Source of the DNA: Sorangium aterium
GTDB taxonomy: Bacteria > Myxococcota_A > Polyangia > Polyangiales > Polyangiaceae
Direction of reading: 5' to 3'
Length of the DNA stretch: 64,000 bases
Assembly: GCF_028368935.1 (NCBI RefSeq)
Contig: NZ_JAQNDK010000007.1
Span: 434,001 to 498,000 of the forward strand
Shown here piece after piece: positions 3,640 to 28,657 of the stretch. The notes beneath the pieces are model-generated. The model was not told the DNA's origin. It searched no databases and was given only the letters and a program-made list of their open reading frames with translations. Every line of letters starts with the position of its first letter. Within the stretch, counting starts at the first letter, position 1. The translations under genes were made by a program, and so were the position numbers.

Positions 3640-3992
3640 GCGAGGTCGCGATCTGGGGCAGAGGCTCCTCTCGTGAGCCGACGGCGAGGTCGCGATCTGG
3701 CGCGGAGGCTCCTCGTGAGCCGATGGCGAGGTCGCGACCTGGTGCGGAGGCTCCTCGCGAGCCGGCGGCGAGGTCGGGACCTGGCGCGGAGGCTCCTCGC
3801 GAGCCGGCGGCGAGGTCGGGACCTGGCGCGGAGGCTCCTCGTGAGCCGATGGCCTGGTCGCGACCTGGCCACTTGTATGAAAAGATCCATTTCTTCAGAT
3901 CGGGACCGGCCTCCGGGGCCGAAAAGATCCTCCGCGATAGGTCGTGACCTGTTCGCGGCCTCGCAAACGAGCGCCGGCGCTGGTCGTGACCT
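3640..3992. repeat. Phased array of nine palindromes, about 42-bp period
   Basis: Five 42-44 bp tandem units (3640-3851) are followed by diverged units. Each unit carries a 12-bp near-palindrome of the form AGGTCGNGACCT. Copies lie at 3643-3654, 3687-3698, 3729-3740, 3771-3782, 3813-3824, 3855-3866, 3897-3908, 3939-3950 and 3981-3992. Centre-to-centre distance is 42 bp throughout, except 44 bp between the first two. The last three copies keep the spacing although the sequence between them has diverged. A period of 42 bp is about four helical turns. No gene overlaps it. Confidence 0.88.
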
Positions 3993-11239: not shown

Positions 11240-11560
11240 CTACGCCGTGACGGTGAACGGCAAGAGCGCGATGTTGCGCGCGCGCTTGATCGAGAGGGTC
11301 ACCTTGCGCTGGTGGCGCGCGCAGTTGCCGCTGATGCGGCGCGGGACGACCTTGCCACGCTCCGAGATGAAGTACTTGAGCGCCTGCGGGTCCTTGTAAT
11401 CGATGACCAGCGCCTTGTCCGCGCAGTAGCGGCAGACGCGCTTCCGGCCCGTGCGGCGGCGCCCAGGGGCGTCGGCGTTCAGGTCGGGCGTGCGCCCGAA
11501 GTCGCGATCGTCGTAGTCAGCGCCGCCGTTGCGGCCCATGTCACTGTTGCGGCCGTTCAT
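11240..11560 (-). CDS. rpsR: 30S ribosomal protein S18
   Basis: A 106-residue S18. The core, from about residue 40, has [19 protein letters not shown], then [22 protein letters not shown] and ARNIALLPF. It keeps four potential zinc ligands (C-x2-C, and C-x2-H), so it is the zinc-binding form. The first 37 residues, rich in Asn, Gly and Asp, are a non-conserved extension. S18 binds S6 on the 30S platform; rpsF lies 3 bp upstream. Confidence 0.96.
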
Positions 11561-11563
11561 AGC

Positions 11564-12103
11564 TCAGCTCTCCTCCTCGTCGGCGGCGCCTTCCGCCTCA
11601 GCCTCTTCGGCATCGTCGAGTTCGCCCGCCGGGGCCTGCTCGGAGCTCCGGTCGATGCGGCGCTCCGGCTCGATCAGGCCGAGCTGACGCTCGCGCGAAT
11701 CGTCGCGGTCGTCCTCCAGCGGCGTGAGCTCGAGGCGCTCGAACTTCACGTCCTCGTCGGCGATCGTGACGCCCTCGACCTCGACGTCGTTGCGCACGAG
11801 CACCGTCTGGTACTTCAGCACGCCGTCGGAGAGGCGCAGGTTGCGCTCGACCTCGGAGACGACCTTCCCGCCCCCGAGGTACTTCAGGTACACGTAAACG
11901 CCGCGGCGGTGCTTGGCGATGTCGTACGCGAGGCGGCGGCGCCCCCACGTCTCGACCTTGGTCAGCCGGCCCGACTCGCGTCCGACGACCTCGGCGAGGC
12001 GCGACCCGATCCGCTCGGCGCCGTCGGCGTCGATGTCGGGTCGCAGGATGTAGATCGTTTCGTACTCTCTGGCGCGCCCGGGCGCCGTTACCTGTCGGCT
12101 CAT
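11564..12103 (-). CDS. rpsF: 30S ribosomal protein S6
   Basis: S6 with the core ferredoxin-like fold at about residues 12-110 (YETIYILRPDIDADGAERI, KVETWGRRRLAYDIAKHRRG, YLKYLGGGKVVSEVERNLR). The remaining 70 residues are a long acidic tail ending EGAADEEES. E. coli S6 ends in glutamates that are extended by RimK; a rimK homologue is encoded at 52801 in this window. First gene of the rpsF-rpsR-rplI operon. Confidence 0.96.
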   Translation of the reverse strand: MSRQVTAPGRAREYETIYILRPDIDADGAERIGSRLAEVVGRESGRLTKVETWGRRRLAYDIAKHRRGVYVYLKYLGGGKVVSEVERNLRLSDGVLKYQTVLVRNDVEVEGVTIADEDVKFERLELTPLEDDRDDSRERQLGLIEPERRIDRSSEQAPAGELDDAEEAEAEGAADEEES

Positions 12104-22867: not shown

Positions 22868-23419
22868 ATGCGTCGCCGTCCTGGCTCAACTTCCCTTCAA
22901 AGGAGGCGGTATTCCGTCTCCACGGTCTCCGGCAACCTGGGTCGGGTCCTCAACCTGGGTCGGGTCCTCAACCTGGGTCGGGTCCTCAACCTGGGTCGGG
23001 TCCTCAACCTGGGTCGGGTTCTCAACCTGGGTCGGGTTCTCAACCTGGGTCGGGTTCTCAACCTGGGTCGGGTCCTGGTCCTCAACCTGGGTCGGGTCCT
23101 CAACCTGGGTCGGGCCCCCATCCCCTCCTGGCCCGCGCCATGCTTGGCCTTGCTCGCCGGCCTTCTGCTTCTGGCCGGGTGCGGGCACCCGGCGAGCCGC
23201 GACGAGTGCGAGGCCATCTTCCGGAGGAGCGCCGAGATCGAGCTCCGGGCGCAGAACGTCGTCGACCCGAAGATCGTCGAGGAGCGCACGGCGGCGGTGC
23301 GGGACGCCCGCGGCAAGGAGCTCATCGACAGGTGCGTCGGGCGCCGCATCACGGACGCTGCGATGGTGTGCGTCCGGCAGGCAACGACCCCGGAGCAGGT
23401 CGATAAGTGCCTGGAGTGA
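22868..23419 (+). CDS. Small lipoprotein with NLGRVL repeats ahead of its signal sequence
   Basis: The conserved part is a lipoprotein of about 90 residues, with hydrophobic core ALLAGLLLLAGC (lipobox LAGC, about 23165-23176) followed by a cysteine-containing domain (DECEAIFRRSAEIELRAQNV ... IDRCVGRR ... MVCVRQ ... KCLE). Upstream in the same frame is a run of ten 18-bp units coding NLGRVL, and the first good start is ATG 22868, before the repeats. No ATG or GTG lies between the repeats and the lipobox; only TTG codons do. Either the repeats are translated as an odd N-terminus or a TTG at about 23141-23147 is used. Its C-terminal domain is paralogous to the next gene, which it overlaps by 4 bp. 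Confidence 0.6.
   Translation: MRRRPGSTSLQRRRYSVSTVSGNLGRVLNLGRVLNLGRVLNLGRVLNLGRVLNLGRVLNLGRVLNLGRVLVLNLGRVLNLGRAPIPSWPAPCLALLAGLLLLAGCGHPASRDECEAIFRRSAEIELRAQNVVDPKIVEERTAAVRDARGKELIDRCVGRRITDAAMVCVRQATTPEQVDKCLE
22934..23119. repeat. Ten-copy 18-bp tandem repeat
   Basis: Units AACCTGGGTCGGGTCCTC start at 22934, 22952, 22970, 22988, 23006, 23024, 23042, 23060, 23084 and 23102. A 6-bp duplication (GGTCCT) sits before the ninth. Several middle copies carry the same C-to-T change (GGTTCTC), which suggests recent expansion by slippage. The unit is a multiple of three, so the reading frame is kept throughout. Confidence 0.93.
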
Positions 23420-23751
23420 CGCGCCCCGCGACCCGCGCCGATGTCCTGGCAACCCTGGCGATCGTCCTGCTGGTGTTCGGTATCCTCGTGGGGCGCGCCG
23501 CGCTCCGCCGCGCCGCTCCGCGCCCGTCCGCCGAGGCGTGCGCCGCGCTCCTCGATCGGTACGTCGAGCTCGTCCTGCGCGCGGCCAACCCCGAGCCCGC
23601 TGCGTCCCAGGTGGCCGAGAGGACCGCAATGGCGCGCGAGGCCGCCGGCGAGCGCGGCTTCGTCCGCTGCGAGGCCGACCTCACGCAGGCGGAGGTGGCG
23701 TGCGCCCTCCAGGCGGGAACTGCGGACGACCTGGAGCGCTGTCTGCCCTGA
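23416..23751 (+). CDS. Small membrane-anchored paralogue of the preceding lipoprotein
   Basis: GTG 23416 overlaps the previous stop in a GTGA arrangement, so translation is probably coupled; a GTG at 23407 is an alternative. The protein of about 111 residues has one N-terminal transmembrane segment (LATLAIVLLVFGILVG). A periplasmic domain follows whose pattern copies the upstream lipoprotein: AEACAALLDRYVELVLRAAN, AERTAMAREAAGERG, RCEADLT, VACALQAGTADDLERCL. Cys positions match between the two. No named family recognised; probably a locally duplicated pair acting together at the membrane. Confidence 0.72.
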   Translation: MTRPATRADVLATLAIVLLVFGILVGRAALRRAAPRPSAEACAALLDRYVELVLRAANPEPAASQVAERTAMAREAAGERGFVRCEADLTQAEVACALQAGTADDLERCLP

Positions 23752-23955: not shown

Positions 23956-25056
23956 GTGAAAGCCCCGTCGCCCTTGCTCGGCTTCAACAACAACGTCCGG
24001 CATAAGGGGCGGTTGTTCCACATACAGACTGAGGACTCGGGCATTCGCCATCCTCACATCATCACGCACCTCTTCGCCGACGGCGGGCGCATCCTCAAGA
24101 CCACGAAGACCTCGTACGCGGAGCACGTCGGTCAGGCCTCGCTCGCGGAGACGGTTCGCGGCCTCATGAAGGAGCAGCACAAGGCGATGTTCATCGCCCT
24201 GCGCGACGGTCACTTCGACTACCTCTTCGATGACGCGGCCGCCCCGCCCGTGTCCGCGGGCGCCGTCGCCTCCCCGTCGCATCCCGAGGCGAGCAAGCCC
24301 GCGCGGGCGTCGTCGCCGTCGTCGCCCGAGGTGACGGGCGCGCCGAAGCCGCCCCCGCCTTCCCGGCCCCTCGCGCCGCCCGTCGTACCGCCCGTCGTGC
24401 CCGAGGCGTCGCCGCGCCCGAAGCCGGCAGCCGCGCCCACGCCGGCGCCCAGGCCCGCCGCTCAGCCCGCAAGGCCAGCGGCCGCGCCCCTCGCCGCAGC
24501 GCCGCGCCCCCCGGCGGCCGAGCCGGCGCCCGCTTCGGCCAGCGGGCGCCCCCGGCTCGAGCTCGATCCCGTCGCGCTCCAGGCGCTCGGCAGCGGGCGC
24601 GCGGCCAGCCCGCTCGCCGGCAGGGCCGTACGCCCGGCGTCGCCCCCGGAGATCAAGCCCGAACCGTCGATCGATCTCGATCTCGACGCGCTGGAGCGCG
24701 CCGCTGCCGAGGCACAGACGCCGTTCTTTCAGCAGATCCAGGACCTCCCGCCGCCGCCTGCGTCGGTGATCGGGCGGCGGGCGGAGTCCGCGGCCTCCGG
24801 CGCCGGGGTCTACAGCAACGTCCATCCCGAGCAGCCCATCGCGCCGCCCGCGCCCCAGGTCGCGGTCGAGCATTTCTCGGGTGGCCCTGGCTCCGGCCGC
24901 TACGCGGCCTCGCGCCCGGCCAGCATCTTCGCGACGAACCGGCCGGCGGAAGGCGCATCGATCTTCGGTGAGGACCTGATCAGCGAGAAATCGCTCGACG
25001 AGGTGATCCTCAGCTACCTCGCGGAAGATCTCGACAGCCCCCCGGAGAAGAAATAG
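23956..25056 (+). CDS. Conserved myxobacterial protein with FNNNVRHKG N-terminal domain
   Basis: About 366 residues. The first 95 form a compact conserved domain (LLGFNNNVRHKGRLFHIQTE, HPHIITHLFADGGRILKTTK, AEHVGQASLAETVRGLMKEQ). I recognise this as a widespread domain of unknown function in Myxococcota. The middle 170 residues are Ala/Pro-rich and disordered. The C-terminus holds short motifs (IDLDLDALERAAAEA, LDEVILSYLAEDL). No signal or membrane segment, so probably cytoplasmic. GTG 23956 is chosen; TTG 23947 is also in frame. Confidence 0.7.
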   Translation: MKAPSPLLGFNNNVRHKGRLFHIQTEDSGIRHPHIITHLFADGGRILKTTKTSYAEHVGQASLAETVRGLMKEQHKAMFIALRDGHFDYLFDDAAAPPVSAGAVASPSHPEASKPARASSPSSPEVTGAPKPPPPSRPLAPPVVPPVVPEASPRPKPAAAPTPAPRPAAQPARPAAAPLAAAPRPPAAEPAPASASGRPRLELDPVALQALGSGRAASPLAGRAVRPASPPEIKPEPSIDLDLDALERAAAEAQTPFFQQIQDLPPPPASVIGRRAESAASGAGVYSNVHPEQPIAPPAPQVAVEHFSGGPGSGRYAASRPASIFATNRPAEGASIFGEDLISEKSLDEVILSYLAEDLDSPPEKK

Positions 25057-26812: not shown

Positions 26813-27007
26813 GCGAGGAGTGAGCCGCGCCCTCTCGGTGAGGCGGGACCCAGTCCACGCAGGCTGTATCTGCGCCGGGCATCGACGCGGTGATTCCGGC
26901 GGCGCGCGGGCGGCGGTAGGATCGGGCATGCCTTGCTTGCACCCTCTCCACCCCGAGCAGGAGGGCTAGCCTCGACGGAGTCGAGATCGAGCGCTGCACA
27001 CCACGAG

Positions 27008-28657
27008 ATGCCCGCCTCCCGCCCGCGTCGCAAGAACGCCGAGTCCGATCCGCCGCCGGAGCTGTTCGCCGGCAAGTACCGGCTCATCCGGATGCTGGGC
27101 AAGGGCGGGATGGGGGAGGTATGGCTCGCCGAGGAGGGGCCTCCCGACGCCCGGCGCCACGTCGCGCTGAAGCGGCTGGTCCCGAGGCCAGGGCTCGGCG
27201 AGAGCGCGAGGGAGTCGTTCTTCGCCGAGGCGCTGGTGATCGCGCGGCTCGATCACCCGAACGTCGTCCGGCTGGTCGAGTTCGGGGAATTCGAGGGCTC
27301 GGTGTACCTCGCGCTCGACTACATCGACGGCCCCGCCCTCGATCGCGTGCTCAAGAAGGCGGGCGCGTTCTCGCCGCGCGCCGTGGCGTACATCGGCCGG
27401 GAGATGGCGAGGGCGCTCGAGGCGGTGCACGGCCTGTGCGAGGACGAAGGGCAGAGCTACGCGGTCGTCCACCGCGACGTCTCGCCGTCCAACATCCTGA
27501 TCGGGCGGGACGGCCGCGTTTGCCTGACCGACTTCGGGGTCGCGCGGATACCGGGCCTCGCGGACGAGCAGTCCGACAGCAGCGTGTTCAAGGGGAAGCT
27601 CCCGTACATGCCTCCGGAGCAGGCGCGCGGGGAGCCGTTCGACGGGCGCGCGGACGTGTTCTCTCTGGGAATCACGCTCCTGGAGGCGCTGCTCGGCAGC
27701 CGGGTGCGCAAGGCCGAGACGCAGCGGCAGCTGATCATGGGCGTCGCGTCGATGCCGATCCCCCGCGCGCGCGAGCTCCTGCCCGACCTGAGCGCGCGGC
27801 TCTCGGCTGCGCTCGACGCGGCGACCGAGTTCTCCGTCGACAAGCGGACCGCCAGCGCGGGCAAGCTGGCCGGCGATCTGGAGCATGTGCTTCGCGAGAT
27901 GGGCCACGGCGCCGAGCAAGAGGCCCTGAGCGAGCTGAAGGAGCACGTCGAGGCTTACATCGCGAGGACAGGCTCGCTGAGCGGCGCCGGCTACCGCGCC
28001 TCACCGTCGCTCCCTCCGGAGAGCGCGCCGAGACAGAGCTCGCCGGGCGTCGGGCGAAAGGCGCCGGCGGTCGCGACCACCTCCGCTGACCGTAGGTCGG
28101 TCCGCCCGTCATCGCCCGATGGACGGCGCAGCGTGCCTGCGGCGGGCCGGAGCGATGCCCCGCTCCCTCTCGGCACCGCGACGGGCTCGCTCTCGGTGCA
28201 GTACCTCGATTTCGACGGCCCGGACGAGGTGCCGCAGCGCCCGCTCCTGCACGCGATGTCGACGACGCCGGAGGGGGAGCTCCAGCGAGGGCTGGGCGCG
28301 GTCGAGGCTGCAGACGGCGTGGCTTCCACGATGAGCAGGCCGCCCGCCGCGAACAGGCCGACCGGAGCGAGCAGGCCGACCGGAGCGAGCAGGCCGGCCG
28401 GAGCGAGCAGGCCGCCCATCGCGAGCACGCCGCCCGTCGCGAGCAGGCCGCCTGGAGCGAGCACGCCGCCCGCAGGCAGCGAGCCGATCGCGGCGCCGGC
28501 GGTTCACACCGGCGGGGAGGTGGCGCCTGGGGAGGAGCCCGCGTCTACCGGGCTCAGCGCCGAGCAGCTGCGGCGCAAGCGGACGATCTTCTATGCAGGG
28601 CTGTTCGTGCTCGGGACGCTCGCGACGATCCGCCTGATCTTCGTCTCCTACTGCTAG
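27008..28657 (+). CDS. Membrane-anchored eukaryotic-type Ser/Thr protein kinase
   Basis: A 549-residue kinase starting at ATG 27008 (the frame is open to 26933). Kinase domain about 22-300: G-loop LGKGGMGEVWLAE (30-42), VALK lysine (55), catalytic loop VVHRDVSPSNIL, DFG loop LTDFGVARIPG, and YMPPEQARG followed by ADVFSLGITLLEAL. All catalytic residues are present, so it should be active. A disordered Pro/Ser linker includes 18-bp repeats coding GASRPT-like units (28339-28465). The C-terminus ends in a single transmembrane helix (TIFYAGLFVLGTLATIRLIF). The sensory part outside the membrane is almost absent, so signals probably come through partners. Confidence 0.93.
   Translation: MPASRPRRKNAESDPPPELFAGKYRLIRMLGKGGMGEVWLAEEGPPDARRHVALKRLVPRPGLGESARESFFAEALVIARLDHPNVVRLVEFGEFEGSVYLALDYIDGPALDRVLKKAGAFSPRAVAYIGREMARALEAVHGLCEDEGQSYAVVHRDVSPSNILIGRDGRVCLTDFGVARIPGLADEQSDSSVFKGKLPYMPPEQARGEPFDGRADVFSLGITLLEALLGSRVRKAETQRQLIMGVASMPIPRARELLPDLSARLSAALDAATEFSVDKRTASAGKLAGDLEHVLREMGHGAEQEALSELKEHVEAYIARTGSLSGAGYRASPSLPPESAPRQSSPGVGRKAPAVATTSADRRSVRPSSPDGRRSVPAAGRSDAPLPLGTATGSLSVQYLDFDGPDEVPQRPLLHAMSTTPEGELQRGLGAVEAADGVASTMSRPPAANRPTGASRPTGASRPAGASRPPIASTPPVASRPPGASTPPAGSEPIAAPAVHTGGEVAPGEEPASTGLSAEQLRRKRTIFYAGLFVLGTLATIRLIFVSYC

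Follow-up and report, generated by a model that had tools for sequence, protein, structure and literature searches.

A probable REP-like repeat array in the signal-peptide n-region of a predicted Sorangium lipoprotein

We analyzed a 64,000-nucleotide stretch of the Sorangium aterium genome, referred to here as the window, in which an 18-bp tandem array precedes the hydrophobic core of a predicted lipoprotein. This array probably represents the expansion of a REP-like repeat that is spread across Sorangium and belongs to a REPtron-like HUH/Y1 transposase system; it lies inside the n-region of the signal peptide. Since the repeat family is dispersed in Sorangium and flanks a REP-type transposase, the array is most likely the expansion of a mobile repeat that is tolerated, not an expression switch. 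The features concerned are given below in window coordinates.

22868–23419, + strand: lipoprotein gene, 183 aa from ATG 22868, with TTG 22832 as a possible alternative start
22868–23179, + strand: predicted lipoprotein signal peptide, 104 aa, with a lipobox (LLAGC) assigned by eye
22933–23114, + strand: array of ten REP-like units with an 18-bp period and one 24-bp spacing, CAACCYGGGTCGGGTC being exact in 6 of 10
23180–23182, + strand: predicted lipidated Cys codon, from the sequence
23407–23751, + strand: overlapping downstream paralogue, membrane-anchored, GTG start, 13-bp overlap, 34% identity

The original prediction described an 18-bp repeat placed in frame before a lipoprotein signal, and TRF combined with ORF reading confirmed this, resolving ten units at 22933–23114 on the + strand (unit CAACCTGGGTCGGGTCCT, 9.8 copies, 91% matches). 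The array contains ten copies of the 12-base core AACCTGGGTCGG, and the rest of the 64-kb window holds only two matches to it, each with two mismatches. Successive cores are spaced by 18 bases seven times, then by 24 and again by 18, so that all nine spacings are divisible by 3. In the sense frame the array reads NLGRVL seven times, NLGRVLVL, NLGRVL and NLGRAP, followed by PIPSWPAPCLALLAGLLLLAGC, and it is in frame with the ORF ending at 23419, between the upstream start and the lipoprotein core. An RNA family scan detected nothing at the array, its only match being a tRNA elsewhere in the window. The copy number given here is that of one strain of S. aterium. Tandem arrays are also numerous in the remainder of the window (32 TRF rows); one of these, a 42-bp repeat of 5.4 copies at 3640–3869, contains the palindrome GGTCGCGACC.

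ATG 22868 lies 65 bases 5' of the array, and TTG 22832 a further 36 bases upstream. The hydrophobic core had been described as internal to a longer open frame, which the ORF bears out; by eye, the hydrophobic stretch ends in the LLAGC lipobox with its Cys, which is conserved in five aligned orthologues. The accompanying claim that no normal start exists holds between the array and the lipobox, where there is no in-frame ATG or GTG and only TTG 23144 and TTG 23150 (276 and 282 bases beyond the ATG), the latter chosen by the gene caller, but it overlooks ATG 22868 just upstream of the array. Similarly, of the suggestion that the signal is either internal or begins at a TTG, the internal core stands, but the arrangement is better read as an unusually long n-region from an upstream start, because all five array-free orthologues have counterparts of ATG 22868 and the TTG at -36, and no downstream start is common to the whole set. 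Codon usage gives a negative score for the stretch from ATG to lipobox in all six species (the window and five relatives), and does not support the array's sense frame in the window as coding. Among pre-array codons, substitutions number 16 at third positions versus 13 and 12 at the other two (14 synonymous, 18 not), an enrichment at third positions that is only slight. Judged from the sequences compared, the array is likely translated, from the upstream start into the hydrophobic core; if so, the n-region of a lipoprotein signal may roughly double in length with the mature part intact, and signal peptidase II would presumably still process the product. Neither the lipoprotein nor the gene downstream matches a Pfam or NCBIfam family with confidence. 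The downstream overlapping gene is indeed a paralogue, as had been proposed (34% identity, E 1.7e-6), with matching Cys spacing as judged by eye. The gene following the paralogue (23965–25056) encodes a RomY N-terminal domain (NCBIfam NF053858, E 1.4e-34).

A 94-aa query recovered the lipoprotein in 36 of 59 genomes, and five Sorangium orthologue loci, named or MAG, were read in detail. All five lack the array, and all five possess an ATG at the position of 22868 with a frame open to the lipobox, giving signal peptides of 46–55 residues versus 104 in the window. This ATG (offset 0) and the TTG at -36 alone recur in frame at all six loci; past the array site, every candidate start is missing from at least one of them. 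The distance from ATG to lipobox is three bases shorter in L033 and 24 longer in L034 than in the other three relatives, with the frame kept in each. L007, a more distantly related orthologue (65% identity), has just one in-frame start: an ATG followed by an Arg-rich n-region. Past the Cys, the mature lipoprotein is as in its relatives, the array notwithstanding.

The array-free relatives also bear on how the array began. In four of the five, the best match to CAACCYGGGTCGGGTC between ATG and lipobox (11, 11, 11 and 13 of 16 bases) sits at the codons where the window array begins, once the L033 and L034 indels are allowed for; in L031 the best match lies elsewhere. Random 140-base stretches reach at least 11 of 16 in 12% of cases and at least 12 of 16 in 2%. 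The near-matches at these codons suggest that a seed at this site, and not an insertion, may have given rise to the array unit. On this sequence comparison, the array may have grown from a pre-existing near-match, either an older element that has decayed or a seed present by chance, which may then have been multiplied by the transposase or by slippage.

Beyond this locus, the repeat is widespread in the genus. Exact copies of AACCTGGGTCGG number 82 in this genome and 110, 22, 256, 232 and 103 in five other Sorangium genomes, with none for the reversed control in all six; 53 more distant genomes hold 0–4 copies, and 0–5 of the reversed control. Copies occur in same-strand clusters with spacings of 12 to more than 100 bases, often 18–21, and the clusters lie mostly between called genes in regions hand-picked from the listed matches, which are not a random sample. 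Head-to-tail arrays of the motif were found at many unrelated loci in each of the six Sorangium genomes. A two-unit pattern also matched further loci, both within this genome and in those of other Sorangium; these overlap heavily and were not treated as independent. Four array-free Sorangium loci (41 kb) gave no motif match at up to two mismatches. The literature searched, which lay largely outside subscription journals, yielded no account of this repeat, of a REP-type transposase in Sorangium, or of lipoprotein n-regions containing tandem repeats.

Many of the clusters form divergent pairs approximately 1.4–1.65 kb apart, and the first six such intervals examined all hold an intact homolog of one protein of approximately 306 aa. 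This protein scores 53.3 bits against NCBIfam REP_Tyr_transpos (NF047646; E 2.7e-14), falling short of the curated cut-off of 80. Pfam Y1_Tnp is matched at E about 0.1 by two of four proteins and not by the other two, and the best hit of a PDB profile search is E. coli TnpA-REP (4er8, E 7e-4), with the HUH motif and Tyr aligned. Residues H60, H62, Y120 and N124 are invariant across 22 rows chosen for alignment. By these sequence comparisons, the protein resembles REP-associated tyrosine transposases of the HUH/Y1 type, and we infer that it creates or spreads the repeats, which would accordingly be mobile. The six Sorangium genomes carry 6, 8, 4, 10, 10 and 8 copies (46 matches). Genome G046 gave 29 transposase matches, of which many are fragments.

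Motif matches at up to two mismatches were counted around 44 distinct Sorangium transposase copies (69.6 kb). Outward-pointing clusters flank 35 of these genes on the left, 38 on the right and 32 on both sides; matches number 447 outward versus 36 inward, and exact matches 175 versus 7. In twelve of the 44, clusters are missing from one side or both; three copies (L193–L195) have no outward match at all, and a contig end truncates at least one (L188). The two most divergent copies (L198 and L199, 42–43% identity) differ from the main group in that their left-side motif reads inward. Outside Sorangium, 22 homologs gave 29 outward versus 3 inward matches, with outward matches in 9 of the 22. At L150 (genome G037), both outward flanks of a 34%-identical homolog share CAACCTGGGTGC. 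The flank-derived consensus, built from 456 instances weighted by flank, is the 16-base CAACCYGGGTCGGGTC, to which 6 of the 10 window units are exact matches. It contains neither a GT[AG]G head nor the GGGGWSAS motif of TIRYTs, and its predicted hairpin scores z = -0.94 when the Y position is T and -2.29 when it is C, with no clear covariation.

These features invite comparison with described systems, as far as the accessible parts of the papers cited portray them. RAYT genes flanked by inverted REPs have been described (PMC2817692), and TnpA-Y1 subclasses with GT[AG]G REPs are distinguished from subclasses 2.1 and 2.3, in which long C-terminal parts occur and no REPs were found (PMC6006769). 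As in REPtrons (PMC2817692, PMC6006769), an HUH/Y1 gene with a Y---NP signature is flanked in Sorangium by an inverted short motif that is also dispersed between genes. In contrast to REPtrons, the Sorangium motif lacks the GT[AG]G head, its predicted hairpin is weak, and its copies form same-strand head-to-tail arrays instead of inverted pairs; moreover, the protein of 306 aa has a long C-terminal part, and its gene is present in 4–10 copies per genome. TIRYTs and their TIRtrons, described alongside intragenic REPs in PMC3733652, similarly combine a RAYT-like gene with flanking inverted repeats other than GTAG REPs, some of them clustered elsewhere in the genome, but the shared motif reported there is GGGGWSAS, whereas Sorangium has CAACCYGGGTCGGGTC in multicopy arrays. 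The long subclass 2.3 proteins (median 325 aa, several copies per genome, Y---NP) are also alike, yet they carry NHYH as the HuH motif where Sorangium has THLH or SHLH, and the available text reports them from Chromatiales and Alteromonadales without the REP-like flanks seen in Sorangium (PMC6006769).

Two further families resemble the array in its coding context. Insertion in frame is known from Rickettsia, whose palindromic elements (RPEs) are likewise mobile-type repeats within protein genes, but these are palindromic single insertions of approximately 150 bp and not short transposase-linked units in tandem arrays (PMC10969869). PARCELs are tandem coding repeats thought to be mobile and found in membrane proteins and lipoproteins, but comprise a 25-residue amphipathic domain in the mature protein, versus 6 residues in the signal peptide here (PMC2996958). 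The words Sorangium and myxo are absent from the main text of PMC6006769, PMC2817692 and PMC3733652. We regard the Sorangium system as a new REP-like variant that works like a REPtron with in-frame insertions, and not as a member of the family, because the motif has no GTAG head and a weak predicted hairpin, and the protein scores below the curated cut-off.

Under the REP-like reading, the unit in the n-region of this strain would have become identical to the family consensus CAACCYGGGTCGGGTC and then multiplied head-to-tail in 18-bp steps, once in a step of 24, through an amplification linked to the transposase. The frame would have been preserved across the array and onward through the hydrophobic core to the lipobox, leaving the mature lipoprotein unchanged. 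The gene could still be read through the array because the steps are multiples of 3 and because extra length in the n-region is tolerated, and gain or loss of a unit would change only the length of the n-region. An ordinary minisatellite, resembling the genus repeat by chance and duplicated by replication slippage without the transposase, would account for several of the same observations: its constant 18-bp period is what slippage is expected to yield, the window is rich in other tandem arrays, and the relatives match 11–13 of 16 bases at the same codons. We nevertheless judge this unlikely, given that six of ten copies are exact to a 16-base consensus derived independently from transposase flanks, and that all six Sorangium genomes contain this motif in head-to-tail arrays at numerous unrelated loci.

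Quite unlikely, in our assessment, is that the array forms an untranslated leader, with the lipoprotein starting at TTG 23144 or 23150. Codon usage does favor the start at 23150, the n-region scoring negative in all six species, and the available text of PMC3733652 cautions that REPs lying in N-terminal coding regions are in many cases extragenic copies that have been misannotated. However, neither TTG is common to all the relatives, as ATG 0 and TTG -36 are; a start at 23144 would yield a signal peptide without positive residues; the spacings, nine of nine, are divisible by 3; and the single in-frame start in L007 is the ATG before its Arg-rich n-region. The original prediction further supposed that repeat number could set expression as a phase-variation-like switch, for which the closeness of the repeat to the 5' end of the gene is the one point in favor, no further support having been found. 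This is highly improbable: every spacing (18 or 24), the irregular one included, is a multiple of 3, so a change in copy number cannot shift the frame, which is never lost, and phase variation by frameshift is thus rejected. Moreover, the array is absent from five orthologues, and a scan that covers myxobacterial promoters poorly found no sigma-70-like promoter near the array or downstream of the repeats.

Arrays with frame-preserving spacing also occur elsewhere in Sorangium. Among 47 clusters with at least three copies, 27 have at least five spacings; in nine of these 27 every spacing is divisible by 3, versus a tally of 49 of 200 spacings in the remaining 18. Spacings within one array are not independent, because the units are copied. 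The nine comprise the window array, L104, L110, L127, L129, L130, two arrays in L131, and L132. Sequence on both sides is coding-like for L129, L130, one L131 array and L132, and on the upstream side only for the other L131 array; by reading, L127 and L110 look coding and L104 does not. Arrays of this kind read QPGSxx or, on the opposite strand, PTQVxx, NLGRVL being the frame of the window. A HEAT-like gene has an in-frame array in G003 and none in four comparable orthologues, the fifth (L205) being cut short and not comparable. In the same genome (So ceGT47), the L131 array at 11276–11804 is a 23-copy in-frame QPGSxx array in a kinase-like gene.

It is conceivable, though doubtful, that Sorangium possesses a distinct Y1 transposase system, recognizing a nearly hairpin-free motif and building head-to-tail arrays in place instead of moving inverted REP pairs, that acts as a genome-wide in-frame generator of peptide repeats. 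Such a system would have generated the NLGRxx, QPGSxx and PTQVxx repeats in linkers and signal peptides; coding-region arrays would survive only with steps divisible by 3, and it would therefore operate as an in-frame repeat generator.

REP elements rank among the most common repeats in bacteria. In the very large genomes of Sorangium, approximately 100–250 copies of one simple motif coexist with 4–10 related transposase genes. This coexistence, together with array sizes that vary between orthologues and arrays that are in frame, makes array growth, target choice and coding tolerance directly testable, and the interest of these data rests on the genus-wide repeat and transposase system more than on the lipoprotein. 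Within the window, a Ser/Thr kinase gene (26933–28657, Pfam Pkinase) carries an 18-bp in-frame repeat of its own at 28333–28472, unrelated in sequence to the array.
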